DNA from: Planctomycetaceae bacterium
Lineage (GTDB): Bacteria > Planctomycetota > Planctomycetia > Planctomycetales > Planctomycetaceae
Direction of reading: 5' to 3'
Assembly (NCBI GenBank): GCA_900299185.1
Contig: OMIV01000268.1
Location: 1-32,741 of the forward strand
Length of the DNA stretch: 32,741 nt
Shown here: one piece after another, positions 15,398-21,983 of the stretch
How the letters are laid out: every line of letters begins with the position of its first letter
Numbering within the stretch: position 1 is the stretch's first letter
Translations under genes and position numbers: made by a program
Notes under the pieces: generated by a model
Databases searched by the model: none
What the model was told of the DNA's origin: nothing
What the model saw: the letters and a program-made list of their open reading frames with translations, nothing else

Positions 15398-18300
15398 TTA
15401 CTTTGGTCCCAACTGCGTGATGATCAATTCGACCGACTCTAGTTGCTTCTTCAAGCCGGCGAGTGCTTCTTTCGTTTGAGTGACCACTGCTTCGGGGGCT
15501 CGCGCGACGAAGCTTTCGTTGGAGAGTTTGGCTTCGTGACCTCGGATGAAGTTGCGGATCTTCTCGGCTTCTTTGAGCTGTCGTTCGTACTCGGCCTTCA
15601 CGTCGATCAAGCCTTCGAGCGGCACGTAGCCGTCGGCGTCGGTCAGCGTGAAACTCGCGGAAGCTGTCGGACGTTCGACTTCGGCTCCGGCAGCGGCGAG
15701 CACGGCTTTCGCGAGGTTGTCGAATTGGTCCGCGCAGTCAGTCATCTCTGAGGCAACTCCCGAAGCGCACTTCAAGTGCAGCTTGATCGGCTCGACGGGA
15801 CTGATGTTGTAGACCGCGCGGATGTTGCGCACGGCGATCACCGTCTCTTGCAGACGACTGAAGCGCGCCTCGAGTTTTTCATCGTGTAACGACGATGACA
15901 GGCTCGGCCACGATGCGATCATCACGCTCTTCGCTGCGGCGGTCGGTTCGAAGAGGCCGCGTGTTGGCGCAATCTCGTTGAGTCGTTGCCAAAGTTCTTC
16001 GCAGATGAACGGCGCGAACGGCTGCAACATGCGGATCAAGTTGTCGAGCACTGCAACGAGCACGCGCTGCGCGATCTGCTTTGTCGTAGCTGTGTCGCTC
16101 TGCGACACAGAATGCGAGTCGCGGAGCGACTCGCCTACGTCAGACGCTGCTGCTTGCGATCGCAAACGCGGCTTGATCATTTCGAGATACCAGTCGCAGA
16201 ACTCGTTCCAGGTGAAGTCGCGCAACGCGCGCGTTGCTTGATCGAACTGGTAGCGATCGAGCAGCGCGGTCACTTCAGCGACTGTCTTCGACAAGCGGCT
16301 CAAGACCCAACGATCTTCCATCCGCAAGTCGGCTTCGGTGACGGTGCCCGGCGTAAAACCTTCGAGGTTCATGATCGCGAACCGCGCGGCGTTCCAGAAC
16401 TTGTTGCAGAAGTTGCGACCGTACTCGAAGCGTTCGCTGACCATCTTGGCGACGGGCTCGCCGGTATCGGGTTCGTACTGCGGCGTCGAGAACTGCGACG
16501 TCTTCTTGCACTTCGCATTGGGGCACGTCAGTCGCGGCTTGTCCGACGGACCGCGCAGCTTCGTCTTGAGCGTCGCGGGTTTGACCATCACGCCATCGTC
16601 ATCAAGCGCTTGCGGCACGAGCGTCTGACAGTGCGGGCATTCGTAAGCCATCGGCAAACGCACGTCCTGAGTCTCGCCCGCGAACGACGCGATCGTGAAG
16701 CGAATGGCGTCGGTGCCATAGCGGTCAATGAGATCAACCGGGTCGCAGCCATTGCCCTTCGACTTTGACATCGTCTGCCCGAAGCCGTCGAGAATTTTCG
16801 GATGCACATGCACGTGTTGAAACGGCACATCGCCCATGTTGTAGAGCCCGGTGAGAACCATCCTCGCGACCCACAACGTGATGATGTCGCGCGACGTGAT
16901 GAGCACGTTGCCGGGATAGAAGTAGGGGAGGACTTCGTTCTTGGTCCCTTGTCCTTGGTCATTGGTCATTGGTTGAGAAGAGCTTGACGCTCCTGATCCA
17001 ACCATCGGCGGGTTGTGTTCGCGATCGGGCCAACCGAGCGTTGCATGCGGCCACAACGCCGAGCTGAACCATGTATCGAGCACGTCTTCGTCTTGCTCCA
17101 GGGAAAGGATCGTCTGAATGAGATGCCACCCAATGCCAGATTTAGCGCCGTAGGCTTCATCGCCTTCACGGCTGGGCGAATACAAGGTGTCTCGCAGCTC
17201 GGTCAGTAGTTGATCGGCGCGATCGGAAAGAGTGCAAATTAGGATTGCTTCGTTTGCAGTGTCCGAGCGGACTTCGACTTCGTCAGAGATTCCAGCTTCC
17301 GAGATCCATGCAGTGAGCAAGTGAAGTACCTCTCGCTCGCTCCATATGCAATTGCCATCGCTCCCTCTAACTCCGTGTGTCAACTGCCACACCGGAATGC
17401 GATGCCCCCACCACAACTGCCGGCTGATGCACCAGTCGCGCTTCTCGCCGAGCCAGTCCATGTAGGTGCTCGTGTAACGCGACGGAAAGAATCGCACCTT
17501 CTTCTCCGTGACCGCGTTCATCGCCATCTGAGCGAGCCCCGGTCGTCCGCTTTCGTGATCGGACATCTTCACGAACCATTGAGCTGACAAATACGGCTCG
17601 ACGGCAGTCTTCGAACGGTCGCTGTGCGCGAGCTCGATCTTGCGATCTTCGACCTTCAAGAAGTGACCGAGCGAAGTCATGTCCTCGACAACTTGCTTGC
17701 GGGCGTCGAAACGATCGAGTCCTTCGTACTTGCCGCCGTTGTCGTTGATCGAGCCATTGGGGTTGAGAATGTTGATCATCGGCAGCCCGTTGCGCAGGCC
17801 GCACGCATAGTCGTTCGGGTCATGCGCCGGAGTGACCTTCACGCAGCCCGTGCCGAGTTCTTTCTTCGCCAAGAGCGCGTCGGCAATGATCGGAATCAAC
17901 CGCCCGTTGAGCGGGATCTGCACCTGCTTGCCGATGAGATGCTGATATCGCTCGTCGGTCGGATGCACGCACACGGCGGTATCACCAAGCATCGTTTCGG
18001 GACGCGTCGTTGAGAATTGGATAAACTCGCCGGTTGGCTGATCGCCGTTCATGACCGGATAGCGAAACGTCCAAAAGTGGCCGTCGACTTCCTCGTGAAA
18101 GACTTCGTCGTCAGCCACAGCGGTCTGCAAGAACGTGTCCCAATTCACGAGCCGCTTGCCGCGATAGATCAAGCCGTCCTTAAAGAATTGAAAGAACGTC
18201 CGACGCACGGCCTTCGAACAGACCTCATCGAGCGTGAAGCGCACTCGCCGCCAATCGCAGCTTGCTCCAATGCCTTTGAGCTGATTGAGAATGCGTTGCT

Positions 18301-18676
18301 CGTAAGTGTCCTTCCAACGCCAGATGCGGCGGACGAGCGCGTCGCGGCCAACGTCATGTCGAGTCAGCCCTTCCTCTTCGAACATGCGTCGCTCAACAAC
18401 CGCCTGAGTCGCGATGCCAGCGTGATCGGTGCCTGGCATCCACAGAGCCTCATAGCCCTGCATGCGGCGATAGCGTGTGATGAGATCCTGCAACGTCCCA
18501 TTGAGAGCATGCCCCATATGCAATGCCCCGGTGACATTGGGCAGCGGGATCATGATGGTGTGCGGCTTCTTGTTGGGATTGGGATCGGCATTGAAGAAGC
18601 CGTTGTCTTCCCAAAACTTGAACCATCGGGCTTGAGCTTCCTTCGGCTGATACTGCTTCGCGAGTTCGGTCGTCAT
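15398..18676 (-). CDS. valS: Valyl-tRNA synthetase
   Basis: This is a 1092-residue class I synthetase that charges tRNA-Val. The ATP-binding HIGH region reads PNVTGALHMGHA (46-57), the KMSKS loop reads TMSKSKGN (635-642), the editing domain has FSTTRPETMLGDTAV, and a C-terminal coiled-coil ends the protein. It is longer than the usual 880-950 residues. Visible extras are a heptamer-repeat insert at about 567-580, a Cys-rich insert with CPHC (680-683) and CPNAKC (718-723) resembling a zinc ribbon, and a twin-hairpin insert at about 846-865. AAGGA lies 5-6 bases before the ATG. It follows cimA by 90 bases with no clear terminator, so it probably belongs to the same transcript and falls under the attenuator upstream of cimA. 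Confidence 0.95.
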   Translation of the reverse strand: MTTELAKQYQPKEAQARWFKFWEDNGFFNADPNPNKKPHTIMIPLPNVTGALHMGHALNGTLQDLITRYRRMQGYEALWMPGTDHAGIATQAVVERRMFEEEGLTRHDVGRDALVRRIWRWKDTYEQRILNQLKGIGASCDWRRVRFTLDEVCSKAVRRTFFQFFKDGLIYRGKRLVNWDTFLQTAVADDEVFHEEVDGHFWTFRYPVMNGDQPTGEFIQFSTTRPETMLGDTAVCVHPTDERYQHLIGKQVQIPLNGRLIPIIADALLAKKELGTGCVKVTPAHDPNDYACGLRNGLPMINILNPNGSINDNGGKYEGLDRFDARKQVVEDMTSLGHFLKVEDRKIELAHSDRSKTAVEPYLSAQWFVKMSDHESGRPGLAQMAMNAVTEKKVRFFPSRYTSTYMDWLGEKRDWCISRQLWWGHRIPVWQLTHGVRGSDGNCIWSEREVLHLLTAWISEAGISDEVEVRSDTANEAILICTLSDRADQLLTELRDTLYSPSREGDEAYGAKSGIGWHLIQTILSLEQDEDVLDTWFSSALWPHATLGWPDREHNPPMVGSGASSSSQPMTNDQGQGTKNEVLPYFYPGNVLITSRDIITLWVARMVLTGLYNMGDVPFQHVHVHPKILDGFGQTMSKSKGNGCDPVDLIDRYGTDAIRFTIASFAGETQDVRLPMAYECPHCQTLVPQALDDDGVMVKPATLKTKLRGPSDKPRLTCPNAKCKKTSQFSTPQYEPDTGEPVAKMVSERFEYGRNFCNKFWNAARFAIMNLEGFTPGTVTEADLRMEDRWVLSRLSKTVAEVTALLDRYQFDQATRALRDFTWNEFCDWYLEMIKPRLRSQAAASDVGESLRDSHSVSQSDTATTKQIAQRVLVAVLDNLIRMLQPFAPFICEELWQRLNEIAPTRGLFEPTAAAKSVMIASWPSLSSSLHDEKLEARFSRLQETVIAVRNIRAVYNISPVEPIKLHLKCASGVASEMTDCADQFDNLAKAVLAAAGAEVERPTASASFTLTDADGYVPLEGLIDVKAEYERQLKEAEKIRNFIRGHEAKLSNESFVARAPEAVVTQTKEALAGLKKQLESVELIITQLGPK
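16085..16139. repeat. Twin-hairpin element inserted in frame in valS
   Basis: There are two perfect 9-bp stems with 3-base loops: CTGTGTCGC/GCGACACAG (16090-16110) and GCGAGTCGC/GCGACTCGC (16114-16134). The whole 55-base unit is bounded by CGTAG (16085-16089) and CTACG (16135-16139). It encodes about 19 residues of a hydrophilic loop in the anticodon-binding part of ValRS. Confidence 0.75.
16941..16975. repeat. Heptamer tandem repeat inside valS
   Basis: Five 7-base units of consensus TTGGTCA start at 16941, 16948, 16955, 16962 and 16969; units three and four are exact. They encode a Gln/Thr/Asn/Gly-rich insert (about residues 567-580) on the minus strand. The consensus equals, to my memory, a short tandem repeat class first described in cyanobacteria (STRR2). 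Confidence 0.8.
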
Positions 18677-18766: not shown

Positions 18767-20365
18767 TTAGTCTCGTCGTCCGTTGCCAATCACGATGCCG
18801 GCATCCTTGAGGAGCTTGTACTCAACGCTGTCAACCAGCGCGAGCCAACTGGCTTCGATGACATTTTCGCTGACGCCGACAGTGTTGATGACTTCGCCGT
18901 CGTTGTCGTCGCGGCTTTCAATGACAACCCGTACTCGGGCAGCGGTGCCTTCGGTGGAGTTGATAACTCGTACCTTGTAATCCACGAGCCGCAGTTGAGC
19001 TAAGTTCGGGAAGACCTGCACCAGTGCCTGACGCAAGGCATTGTCGAGAGCGTTGACTGGTCCATCGCCTTCGCCGGCCACCAAAACATCTCGGTCACTA
19101 ACGCTGAGCTTCAAGACGGCCGTCGTGATGGCGGGTGAGTCGCCGTCAGTCTGCACATGCACGTGATAGCTCTTACGGCGGAAGCTCGACGAATAGTTGC
19201 CGGCCACCTTCTGGATGAGCAGGTCGAACGACGCTTCCGCTGCTTCGAATTGATAGCCCTCGTTTTCGAGATCTTGCACTCGATCGAGGATCTTCTTCAT
19301 CAGCTCGTTGTCGTTGTCGAGTTTGTACTTGGTCGCCTTGGCCACAATGTTCGAGCGACCGGACAACTCGCTGACCAGCACGCGACGTTCGTTGCCAATG
19401 AGTGACGGGTCAATGTGCTCGTAGCTATGAGCGATGCGATTAACGGCGTGCACGTGCATGCCGCCTTTGTGAGCGAAGGCACTCCGGCCAACCCAAGCTT
19501 GGTTGTTGCGATGATTGAGATTCGCCAACTCGTAGACGTAGTGCGAGAGATCGCACAGACGTTGGACCGAACCCTCGCGAAGCATTTCGTAGCCGCGTTT
19601 CTTAAACGTCATATTGGCCACAACGCTGATGAGATCGACGTTGCCACATCGCTCGCCGATGCCGTTGATCGTGCCTTGAACTTGCAAAGCACCTGCATCG
19701 AGCGCTGCCAACGAATTGGCGACAGCGAGGTCGCCGTCGTTGTGGCAGTGAATGCCGACTGGGACTTTCAAAGCTGCTCGCACGGCGGTCACGGCAGCAG
19801 CGACTTCTTCAGGCAGCCGACCACCATTGGTGTCGCACAAGCAGACCATTGAAGCACCGGCTTCTTCGGCTGCTTTAACTGTCTTTAACGCGAACTCTGG
19901 GTTTGCTCGCCAGCCGTCAAAGAAGTGTTCGGCGTCATAGATCAGTTCGCGACCAAGGCCGGCGAGATACCCAACCGAGTCTCGAATCATGGCCAAGTTC
20001 TCGGACTCATCGACTCGCAGAACTTCGAAGACATGCAAATCCCAGGTCTTGCCCACAACCGTGCAAACCGAGGCTTTCGAATCACGCAAGGCTTGCATGC
20101 CGATGTCGTCTTCCGGCTTGCAGTCGCGACGACGAGTCATACCGAAGGCACAGATCTTGGCGTGCTTCCAAGTCATCTCGGCCGCACGCTGAAAGAATTC
20201 GAAGTCCTTGGGGTTGGAGAGTGGATAACCACCTTCGATGTAGTCGAAGCCGAGTTCGTCGAGCTTTTGCGCGATCAGCAGTTTGTCCTGAAGCGAGAAG
20301 TTGACGCCTTCACCCTGCGAACCATCACGCAGGGTTGTGTCGTAGATTTGGATGCGTTGCGTCAT
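18767..20365 (-). CDS. cimA: (R)-citramalate synthase
   Basis: This 532-residue enzyme condenses pyruvate and acetyl-CoA to citramalate, the entry to the threonine-independent route to isoleucine. It starts MTQRIQIYDTTLRDGSQGEG, with the metal-site HxH in GIHCHNDGDLAVANS, the block NGIGERCGNVDL and the motif AFAHKGGMHVHAV. A LeuA-type allosteric dimer domain fills about residues 390-525. The set fits citramalate rather than 2-isopropylmalate synthase. The ATG at 20365 is the start: the frame is open further upstream, but that extension would translate a transcription terminator. No strong ribosome site is visible. A leader peptide and attenuator precede it, and valS follows 90 bases downstream. 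Confidence 0.93.
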   Translation of the reverse strand: MTQRIQIYDTTLRDGSQGEGVNFSLQDKLLIAQKLDELGFDYIEGGYPLSNPKDFEFFQRAAEMTWKHAKICAFGMTRRRDCKPEDDIGMQALRDSKASVCTVVGKTWDLHVFEVLRVDESENLAMIRDSVGYLAGLGRELIYDAEHFFDGWRANPEFALKTVKAAEEAGASMVCLCDTNGGRLPEEVAAAVTAVRAALKVPVGIHCHNDGDLAVANSLAALDAGALQVQGTINGIGERCGNVDLISVVANMTFKKRGYEMLREGSVQRLCDLSHYVYELANLNHRNNQAWVGRSAFAHKGGMHVHAVNRIAHSYEHIDPSLIGNERRVLVSELSGRSNIVAKATKYKLDNDNELMKKILDRVQDLENEGYQFEAAEASFDLLIQKVAGNYSSSFRRKSYHVHVQTDGDSPAITTAVLKLSVSDRDVLVAGEGDGPVNALDNALRQALVQVFPNLAQLRLVDYKVRVINSTEGTAARVRVVIESRDDNDGEVINTVGVSENVIEASWLALVDSVEYKLLKDAGIVIGNGRRD

Positions 20366-20393
20366 GAGAAGCCGTGATCGTGAAAGTCGTGAC

Positions 20394-20436
20394 GGGAAAA
20401 AGAAAAAGCCCTCAGGTTCGGCAACCTGAGGGCTTT
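20394..20436 (-). terminator. Intrinsic terminator in the cimA leader (attenuator)
   Basis: On the minus strand AAAGCCCTCAGGTT (20436-20423) and AACCTGAGGGCTTT (20418-20405) form a perfect 14-bp stem with loop GCCG, followed by a U-rich tract ending near 20396. The cimA ATG is only about 30 bases further on. That leaves no room for a separate cimA promoter, so the terminator lies inside the cimA leader RNA. Confidence 0.88.
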
Positions 20437-20476
20437 GACATACTCGTTTCGCGAGAACCACTCAAAGTCGCCTCAG
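20426..20476 (-). promoter_or_regulatory. Antiterminator pairing that competes with the terminator
   Basis: CTGAGG (20476-20471) can pair with CCTCAG (20431-20426), and CTTTGA (20467-20462) with TCAAAG (20438-20433). The two 6-bp helices are separated by a small internal loop. They use the 5' arm of the terminator, so the two structures exclude each other. The first segment overlaps the leader ORF stop codon (20475-20473), so a ribosome finishing the leader would block the antiterminator. Confidence 0.7.
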
Positions 20477-20556
20477 TGCCTGTTAATAATTCGAATGACT
20501 ACCACTCGTCCGAGGACGGCAGCGGCGGTCATCAAATTATCGGCGATCAGCGACAT
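20473..20556 (-). CDS. Branched-chain amino acid leader peptide (27 aa)
   Basis: This is a short ORF of 27 codons plus TGA, beginning MSLIADN and containing the run VVVIRII at codons 18-24 (codons GTG GTA GTC ATT CGA ATT ATT), then NRH and the stop. GGAG at 20570-20567 lies 10 bases before the ATG. Its role would be to sense charged tRNA-Val and tRNA-Ile: a ribosome stalled at codons 18-24 leaves the antiterminator segment free, and one reaching the stop covers it. A similar arrangement is known for ilv leader peptides of enterobacteria. It sits between the enolase-superfamily gene and cimA. The peptide itself need have no function. Confidence 0.82.
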   Translation of the reverse strand: MSLIADNLMTAAAVLGRVVVIRIINRH

Positions 20557-20589
20557 TCTTATCGTGCTCCATTGGCGATTGCGGGCGGG

Positions 20590-20617
20590 ATCTTAGTCCC
20601 GAGGTTAGGTAGGTCAA
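20590..20617 (-). promoter_or_regulatory. Sigma70-like promoter for the cimA leader
   Basis: TTGACC (20617-20612) and TAAGAT (20595-20590) are separated by 16 bases, starting about 14 bases after the stop of the upstream enolase-superfamily gene. The predicted start near 20583 would give a leader of about 215 bases that contains the leader ORF and the attenuator. Confidence 0.55.
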
Positions 20618-20630
20618 TGCCGGTCTAAGG

Positions 20631-21983
20631 CTAGAAACCCAAACCGACGTCGGACAACGCGCCGGTGCCAACGGTTCCATCCGTAATCTGGAACATGGAA
20701 GGCAGAAGTTTCGAGTACTGCTTGTTCGGACCGGGGCAGTACTGGCGACCGTTCCCTTCGATGGCCGCAACGGTCGGAATCCGAGCGGCCATGCTGGCCG
20801 AATGCAGGAATGAGAACCCAGTGCAAGTCAGGTCTTGAACGCACAGAAACATTCCAAATTTCTGGGCCGCTGCTGACAAGCAAAGTGATTCTGAATGTCC
20901 TTTGCAGGTCTTCAGTGCGACCCCCGTGTAGCCTTGGTCGCGAGCCATCAACAACGCTTCGTAGTCGACCAGCGCTTCATCAACGACGATCGGCTTCAGC
21001 TTCGCAGCTTCATGCAGCTTGATCTCGGGATGGGCCTTGAGATTTCGACTCGTCGGCTGCTCGATGTATTGAATTCGATCGTAGGCAGCGGGGGCTTGTT
21101 CTTGGACCTTCTTCAAAAACGCCAAGACATATTCGACGTTCTCGCACTTTTCATTGAAGTCGAGTGAATACCACCATTGCTTACAGCCTCGCGCGGTCTG
21201 CGCTTCGACGGCCACTTTCTCAATCTTTACGACTCGCTCAATGTCCCATTCGAGGTTGTCACCAGCCAGCTTGATCTTGAGATGAGTCAGGCCGTCTTGC
21301 TTAAGCCATTCACCGAGTGTTACCGGCAAGTTGTCTTTGGGACGACTCGTTACGTCCGCGGCCGTGAGTGGATCGAGTGCGCCAATCAAGTGGTACAGCG
21401 GCATGCGATCTTTGGGAGTTCGCGTCGTGTACTGGTCGAGATACTCGCCTTTAAATTGGTCGTCCAGATAGGTCGTCAAGTCGTCGTTCATGAACTCCTT
21501 GGAGAGGGTGTTGTAGGAATTCACGTTATGGAGCCGACCAAAGGCGTCGTGAACAGCAGCGTCCAACGGACTGGCGGCGACAAGATGAGCTAACTTCGGA
21601 AACTCTTCGCCGAGGTGCTGCTGGTCGGCAATGGTGCGACCCAAGTGGCCGAACTCTTCGGCAAGGTCGTACATCAGCTCTAACGGGTGGCCATAGTGCG
21701 GGATACCCAGAGCGACTGTGGTGATCTCTTCCGCAAAGTGCTTCATCGCAGCTTCGGTCTTATCTCCCGAGAGCTGCATCGAGGGCCAAGCCCAGATATT
21801 GCCGATCGGCATACTGCCGAAGCCGGTTTCGTGCTTTCCTCTTTGGTTCTCGACGGTGACCTCGACGTTGATCAAGAAGGTCTTGTCGATGACTCGGCCG
21901 CCGAACTTCAGCGGGGCTCGAAAGGTGACGGGTTCAAAGGAGCAAACAGCATCTCGAATCTTGACGTCAGTTGTCTTGGGCAT
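20631..21983 (-). CDS. Enolase-superfamily (MR/MLE-like) enzyme
   Basis: This is a 450-residue enzyme of the enolase superfamily, which abstracts a proton next to a carboxylate with help of Mg2+. Visible catalytic elements of the barrel are HLKIKLAG (KxK, K236 and K238), SLDFNE (D275), YIEQP (E308), VVDEAL (D335, E336) and ALKTCKGHS (K358), so both general bases and the three metal ligands are present. The N-terminal capping domain is large. The exact substrate cannot be told: epimerase, racemase and dehydratase remain possible. The ATG at 21983 has a weak ribosome site. It precedes cimA on the same strand with no terminator of its own before the cimA leader, so read-through would also pass the attenuator. 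Confidence 0.85.
   Translation of the reverse strand: MPKTTDVKIRDAVCSFEPVTFRAPLKFGGRVIDKTFLINVEVTVENQRGKHETGFGSMPIGNIWAWPSMQLSGDKTEAAMKHFAEEITTVALGIPHYGHPLELMYDLAEEFGHLGRTIADQQHLGEEFPKLAHLVAASPLDAAVHDAFGRLHNVNSYNTLSKEFMNDDLTTYLDDQFKGEYLDQYTTRTPKDRMPLYHLIGALDPLTAADVTSRPKDNLPVTLGEWLKQDGLTHLKIKLAGDNLEWDIERVVKIEKVAVEAQTARGCKQWWYSLDFNEKCENVEYVLAFLKKVQEQAPAAYDRIQYIEQPTSRNLKAHPEIKLHEAAKLKPIVVDEALVDYEALLMARDQGYTGVALKTCKGHSESLCLSAAAQKFGMFLCVQDLTCTGFSFLHSASMAARIPTVAAIEGNGRQYCPGPNKQYSKLLPSMFQITDGTVGTGALSDVGLGF

Follow-up and report, generated by a model that had tools for sequence, protein, structure and literature searches.

A putative ribosome-mediated transcription attenuator upstream of the planctomycete cimA-valS genes

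A short open reading frame (ORF) with a run of valine and isoleucine codons, followed by a predicted intrinsic terminator, lies ahead of cimA in a Planctomycetaceae bacterium. What would such an element do, and do its codons bear any relation to the genes that it precedes? We examined the 32,741-nt stretch of DNA that carries it (hereafter, the window) together with the cimA loci of relatives. On sequence comparison, we consider it highly probable (about 0.9) that the element controls a cimA-valS operon by ribosome-mediated transcription attenuation.

The gene downstream of the leader had been named cimA in a first-pass annotation of the window, and its product indeed scores well above the curated cut-off of the citramalate synthase model, and below the cut-offs of the 2-isopropylmalate synthase models; by these scores the gene is cimA (Table 1). 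Its mechanically called ORF is longer (564 aa), reading across the terminator to an in-frame GTG (20366-20461, minus strand). Homology starts only at the ATG, thus the upstream GTG is unlikely to be a real start. In the valS ORF, to which the first-pass annotation had not drawn attention, the TIGR00422 match at G000:C268:17381-18661 lies above the cut-off together with neighbouring matches in frame. No terminator was found in the gap between cimA and valS in the window, and just one of the 26 gaps examined in relatives contained one; the two genes are presumably co-transcribed. On the other side of the leader, a co-directional gene of the enolase superfamily ends at 20631. Matches to ilvA were obtained in 19 of 21 genomes, none above the TIGR01127 cut-off.

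The whole leader lies on the minus strand, where it was both read directly in the sequence and scanned. The promoter-like pair, the Shine-Dalgarno-like motif, the ORF with its VVVIRII run and the terminator with its U tract are all where the first-pass annotation had placed them, the terminator and U tract ending some 30 nt 5' of the cimA start codon. The promoter-like pair matches 9 of the 12 consensus letters and is found once, versus 0.2 times expected in shuffled sequence, but it has no counterpart in the alignment with a same-genus relative (L002). For the terminator region, the predicted folding energy is about -33 kcal/mol (z -2.4 and -3.0). When the RNA is truncated at the terminator loop, an antiterminator fold is predicted (-25.9 kcal/mol), the CTGAGG..CTTTGA strand being complementary to TCAAAG-CCCTCAG. 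In the fold of the full leader, the start of the ORF pairs with a stretch 3' of the stop, which raises the question of an early pause or protector (1:2) hairpin. Known RNA families were also considered and rejected: a relaxed search returned six sub-threshold matches, the best being a trpB motif (24.1 bits versus 59) and His_leader (18.8 versus 49).

Table 1. Features of the cimA leader, its downstream genes and the leuA leader of the same genome.
Feature	Position	Strand	Basis
Promoter-like pair: TTGACC (20617-20612), 16-nt spacer, TAAGAT (20595-20590)	20590-20617	minus	consensus match only
Shine-Dalgarno-like GGAG, 10 nt 5' of leader ATG	20567-20570	minus	sequence
Leader ORF, 27 codons, MSLIADNLMTAAAVLGRVVVIRIINRH; VVVIRII at codons 18-24	20473-20556	minus	sequence; Ile/Val enrichment in 122 loci
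Predicted antiterminator 5' strand: CTGAGG (20476-20471, with the UGA leader stop at 20475-20473), then CTTTGA (20467-20462)	20462-20476	minus	folds and complementarity tests
Predicted antiterminator 3' strand TCAAAGCCCTCAG, overlapping terminator 5' arm	20426-20438	minus	folds, complementarity
Predicted intrinsic terminator hairpin, 14 pairs	20405-20436	minus	folding and scan
U tract TTCTTTTT	20397-20404	minus	scan
cimA, citramalate synthase, 532 aa from ATG 20365	18767-20365	minus	TIGR00977, 658.1 bits (curated cut-off 450)
valS, valyl-tRNA synthetase, 3' of cimA, co-directional	15398-18676	minus	ORF; TIGR00422
leuA upstream of the same genome (L258), Leu-run leader NLLNLGLLLLLPYQ	G000:C312:14616-15216 (terminator C312:14781-14808)		

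If the leader is functional, it would be expected to recur in relatives. We collected 214 cimA loci: 30 obtained by searching 40 relatives, 80 named ones kept out of a longer list, 24 added by scanning 258 genomes of the class (cimA was present in 242), and a further 80 upstream stretches picked from the matches listed by that scan that still lacked a locus. Ten identical upstreams were removed, leaving 204, and in 141 of these a terminator was found with at least 90 nt 5' of it. When both a terminator and a leader ORF containing 4 or more Val/Ile in 8 codons are required, 120 of the 176 upstreams from Planctomycetota carry the pair, and the remaining 56 lack it by the same criteria. By group, with assignments resting on labels of metagenome-assembled genomes (MAGs) that may be wrong, the counts are 89/125 for class-mates (window included), 16/28 for named Planctomycetia, 10/13 for named Planctomycetota without a class, 4/7 for Phycisphaerae and 1/3 for loci labelled Brocadiia. 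Outside the phylum, the pair was found in three of four loci that are Myxococcota by taxonomy (Deltaproteobacteria in their titles), and in none of 7 Omnitrophota, 10 Bacillota and 7 other loci. In the comparison of related planctomycetes that the annotation had proposed, the ORF, the codon run, the terminator and the antiterminator on the stop recur despite divergence of the DNA. The leader of L002 (GRVVVIIRITEG) illustrates this: its terminator core is the same as in the window, and in its run, VVVIIRI, each of the three valines has a different synonymous codon from its counterpart (GTA GTC GTG, versus GTG GTA GTC in the window).

Two observations concern loci from outside the phylum. L088, L106 and L107, titled Deltaproteobacteria, have Ile-rich leaders upstream of cimA, two of which also contain Leu and Val runs (NNIIVIISATGILLPLLLLVVV) and an antiterminator CCTGATAATG. 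In Omnitrophota, cimA adjoins valS in six of seven loci (L076, L081-L083, L098 and L100), and no attenuator was found there.

The codon content of the leaders was analysed in 122 non-redundant loci whose terminator reaches -12 kcal/mol or lower, among ORFs ending at most 130 nt from it. At least 5 Val/Ile in 8 codons were present in 67 of the 122 loci, versus a mean of 1.2 and a maximum of 4 in 100 dinucleotide-shuffled sets. The first-pass annotation had called the element a Val/Ile leader. The enrichment of the run upholds this, but the two residues are not equal: isoleucine comes first (z 30.0) and valine second (z 12.3), followed by Ala (5.5), Met (5.4) and Leu (5.1). The last Val/Ile codon lies at a median of 5 codons ahead of the leader stop, and the stop at a median of 30 nt from the terminator arm (10-90% range, 21-41).

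The proposal that an antiterminator segment sits on the leader stop was borne out by the sequence, by the folds and by two tests over 104 loci. Complementarity between the stop region and the terminator 5' arm averaged 17.4, versus 13.0 in each locus's own shuffles (z 16), with just 52 of the 104 loci singly above 95% of their 40 shuffles. Moreover, the stop region matches its own arm (16.9) better than arms swapped between loci (13.7, z 11; the highest of 2000 permutations gave 14.7). When the ten nearest relatives supplied the arms for comparison, the own arm was better in 65 loci and worse in 34 (p=1e-5). Because many arms are alike, it ranked within the top tenth of the whole set in no more than 32 of 104 loci. 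The stop, be it UGA, UAG or UAA, often falls inside the strand, which is still able to pair (CCTGAGG, GGCCTTAGGGTT, GGCCTTAAGGC). Given the median 30-nt distance from stop to arm and the last Val/Ile codon at a median of 5 codons upstream, a stalled ribosome should leave this strand free, and one that has finished the leader, being positioned over the stop, should mask it.

Other readings of the same anatomy were weighed. The hairpin might be the ordinary 3' terminator of the enolase-superfamily gene, with an accidental leader ORF, since that gene is co-directional and the stretch scanned from there to cimA contained no second terminator. However, among the 134 loci scanned (some with short flanks), the gene precedes cimA only in the window, whereas leader and terminator recur with cimA, and both the codon specificity and the own-arm complementarity oppose an accidental ORF. 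We regard this reading as very improbable and set it aside, as leader and terminator travel with cimA rather than with that gene. Alternative folds 5' of a biosynthetic gene would also fit a metabolite-binding riboswitch or a T-box that uses the terminator, the ORF not being the sensor. Yet no Rfam family matched at its gathering score in the window or in 20 loci, a T-box core string occurred in one of the 204 upstreams, and the codon identity turns to Leu at leuA (see below), which makes such a sensor equally hard to credit. Least likely of all is that the leader works not by termination but by translational coupling or by reinitiation at cimA. Bacteria, including Planctomycetes, commonly have leader genes near structural genes, according to the accessible part of PMC4833913, but the distances reported there peak at 10-11 nt, whereas the leader stop is separated from the cimA ATG by 107 nt in the window and by 74 to more than 300 nt in relatives, with the terminator in between.

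A leader of like layout, but with Leu codons, lies ahead of leuA, the paralogue of cimA: 18 of 20 upstreams, from 20 genomes, have a terminator with Leu-rich ORFs 5' of it. In these 18 leaders Leu occupies on average 5.5 of 8 codons versus 2.06 in shuffles (z 14.8), the next residue reaching 2.1. The genome of the window has such a leader as well. In that 7.87-Mb genome the exact pattern CCCTSAGGN{2,14}CCTSAGGGNTTT (CCCTSAGG..CCTSAGGG.TTT) occurs at two places, the cimA leader (on both strands) and the leuA leader. In scans of ilvB, ilvC and leuA that counted Val/Ile in the best Val/Ile/Leu window of each locus, no comparable Val/Ile leader and no Val/Ile run of 5 was found upstream of ilvB (27 upstreams) or ilvC (28). 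Neither a comparable leader nor, in the best-scoring window, a run of 5 was found upstream of ilvD (25) or ileS (9), or in the 24 upstreams of stand-alone valS (one of just 80 nt), where a Val leader of its own had been expected. The trpE upstreams had a terminator in 3 of 20 cases and no Trp leader; for pheS, the query placed merely one of 20 loci. Together, the shuffles and the upstreams of other genes rule out a chance ORF as the origin of the cimA leader.

Two features of ileS were seen in passing. One upstream (L399) has an Ile/Leu/Val-rich ORF ahead of a weak hairpin (-10.8). The ileS model TIGR00392, at 1e-100, matched in none of 16 genomes of the window's family and in all nine of other families in the class; the family of the window may have a divergent isoleucyl-tRNA synthetase.

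Why would an isoleucine leader also contain valine codons? The number of Val codons follows the linkage of valS. This comparison used 104 leaders, 70 of 174 loci having been dropped (60 for redundancy or lack of a qualifying terminator, 6 for having fewer than 4 Val/Ile in 10 codons and 4 for short downstream DNA). In the class without valS, 14 loci were checked genome-wide and the other 17 were judged on at most 2500 nt of downstream DNA; five (L004, L112, L128, L178 and L201) were moved to the linked class when a whole-genome search placed valS about 1.5 kb downstream. At least two Val codons are found in 54 of 78 leaders with a linked valS versus 3 of 26 without, and the best 10-codon window contains on average 2.23 versus 0.58 Val (Mann-Whitney p=3.9e-8); Val is absent altogether from 8 of the 78 and from 15 of the 26. 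Before the five loci were reclassified, the p value was 3.5e-7 (2.2e-5 with phylogeny and GC content, and 2.2e-3 at lambda 1). Within the linked class, Val counts showed no difference according to whether valS lay near or farther off (p 0.27).

It could still be argued that the attenuator senses isoleucine alone, or the branched-chain pool, and that Val drifts or follows lineage, its association with valS being a coincidence of shared ancestry. The z score of Ile, well over that of Val, fits this reading, and so do the 8 linked leaders without any Val. Independent pairs were likewise not significant, with 3.8 in favour and 0.1 against of 6 (median p 0.125), or 4.9 versus 0.5 of 9 with the first linkage classes (p 0.125); these pairs are too few (6 supported, 10 on all branches) to decide. 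Against it, regression on the CimA tree retains the association, with p=3.3e-6 at the fitted lambda of 0.39 and 8.6e-4 when lambda is set to 1, and the association holds with GC as a covariate too. GC content itself was excluded as a cause, the covariate adding nothing. We find sensing of isoleucine alone unlikely, if worth keeping in mind. We lean instead towards a two-tRNA sensor whose codons track the content of the operon: Val and Ile where valS is linked, nearly pure Ile elsewhere and pure Leu at leuA, with attenuation placed on the two committed synthases and the shared ilv genes going without. The cimA leader seems tuned also to the adjoining valS.

In the mechanism that we propose, which upholds the stalling logic of the first-pass annotation, the transcript would begin near 20583 and a ribosome would trail the polymerase, translating the 27-codon leader. 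In cells short of charged tRNA-Ile or tRNA-Val, the ribosome would stall within VVVIRII, at least three codons ahead of the stop; the strand that spans the stop and continues 3' of it would then be free to pair with TCAAAGCCCTCAG, no terminator would form, and cimA (and valS) would be transcribed. With both tRNAs charged, the ribosome would reach the stop and cover the strand, the terminator would form, and transcription would halt 5' of cimA. If two tRNAs are indeed read, a single switch would cover isoleucine synthesis and the charging of tRNA-Val where valS is linked.

Such a switch offers a possible account of how isoleucine and leucine synthesis are controlled in planctomycetes. The cimA and leuA leaders form a natural pair for studying specificity set by codon identity, and the leader codons seem to follow a tRNA-synthetase gene into and out of an operon. 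Ribosome-mediated attenuation needs ribosomes close behind the RNA polymerase, and Planctomycetota are noted for unusual internal membranes; an attenuator spread through this phylum would imply that transcription and translation are coupled there.

Enterobacterial ilvGMEDA and ilvBN have leader attenuators. The planctomycete element resembles them in its short ORF of branched-chain codons, its antiterminator set against an intrinsic terminator and a choice that would be made by ribosome position. It differs in its target, cimA with valS, whereas ilvB, ilvC and ilvD are without such a leader here. The accessible part of PMC10272879 mentions the E. coli ilv case and, as does that of PMC8632094, uORF motifs of the ilvB-II, ilvB-OMG and Leptospira ilvB type. 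There too a uORF rich in branched-chain codons precedes a branched-chain gene, but cimA is another gene, and the string 'planctomycet' is absent from the main text of both papers. In Actinobacteria, the accessible text of PMC1262725 describes the LEU element of leuA, ilvB leaders and predicted attenuators of trpS and leuS. As in our case, the codons match the gene, and some of these leaders stand at tRNA synthetases; the LEU element is a pseudoknot, unlike the planctomycete leader, and neither 'citramalate' nor 'planctomycet' occurs in that text. PMC4833913, in its accessible part, deals with the leader genes of Planctomycetes through statistics of distance, and neither cimA nor isoleucine is named there. 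The first-pass annotation took such a leader for citramalate synthase in a planctomycete to be undescribed. Likewise, in an open-access library, outside which most subscription papers lie, we found neither an attenuator of cimA, nor attenuators of this kind from Planctomycetes, nor a link to valS. The mechanism of attenuation is known already; within the scope of that library, the cimA target, the phylum and the valS link are apparently new. A likeness on the side of the synthetase is uORFC-8-2, the cysS leader of Rhodobacterales described in the accessible part of PMC8632094, where ribosome-mediated attenuation also places a tRNA-synthetase gene under its cognate codons. That leader serves one amino acid and cysS, whereas the cimA leader precedes a biosynthetic gene and then a synthetase, with two kinds of codon.
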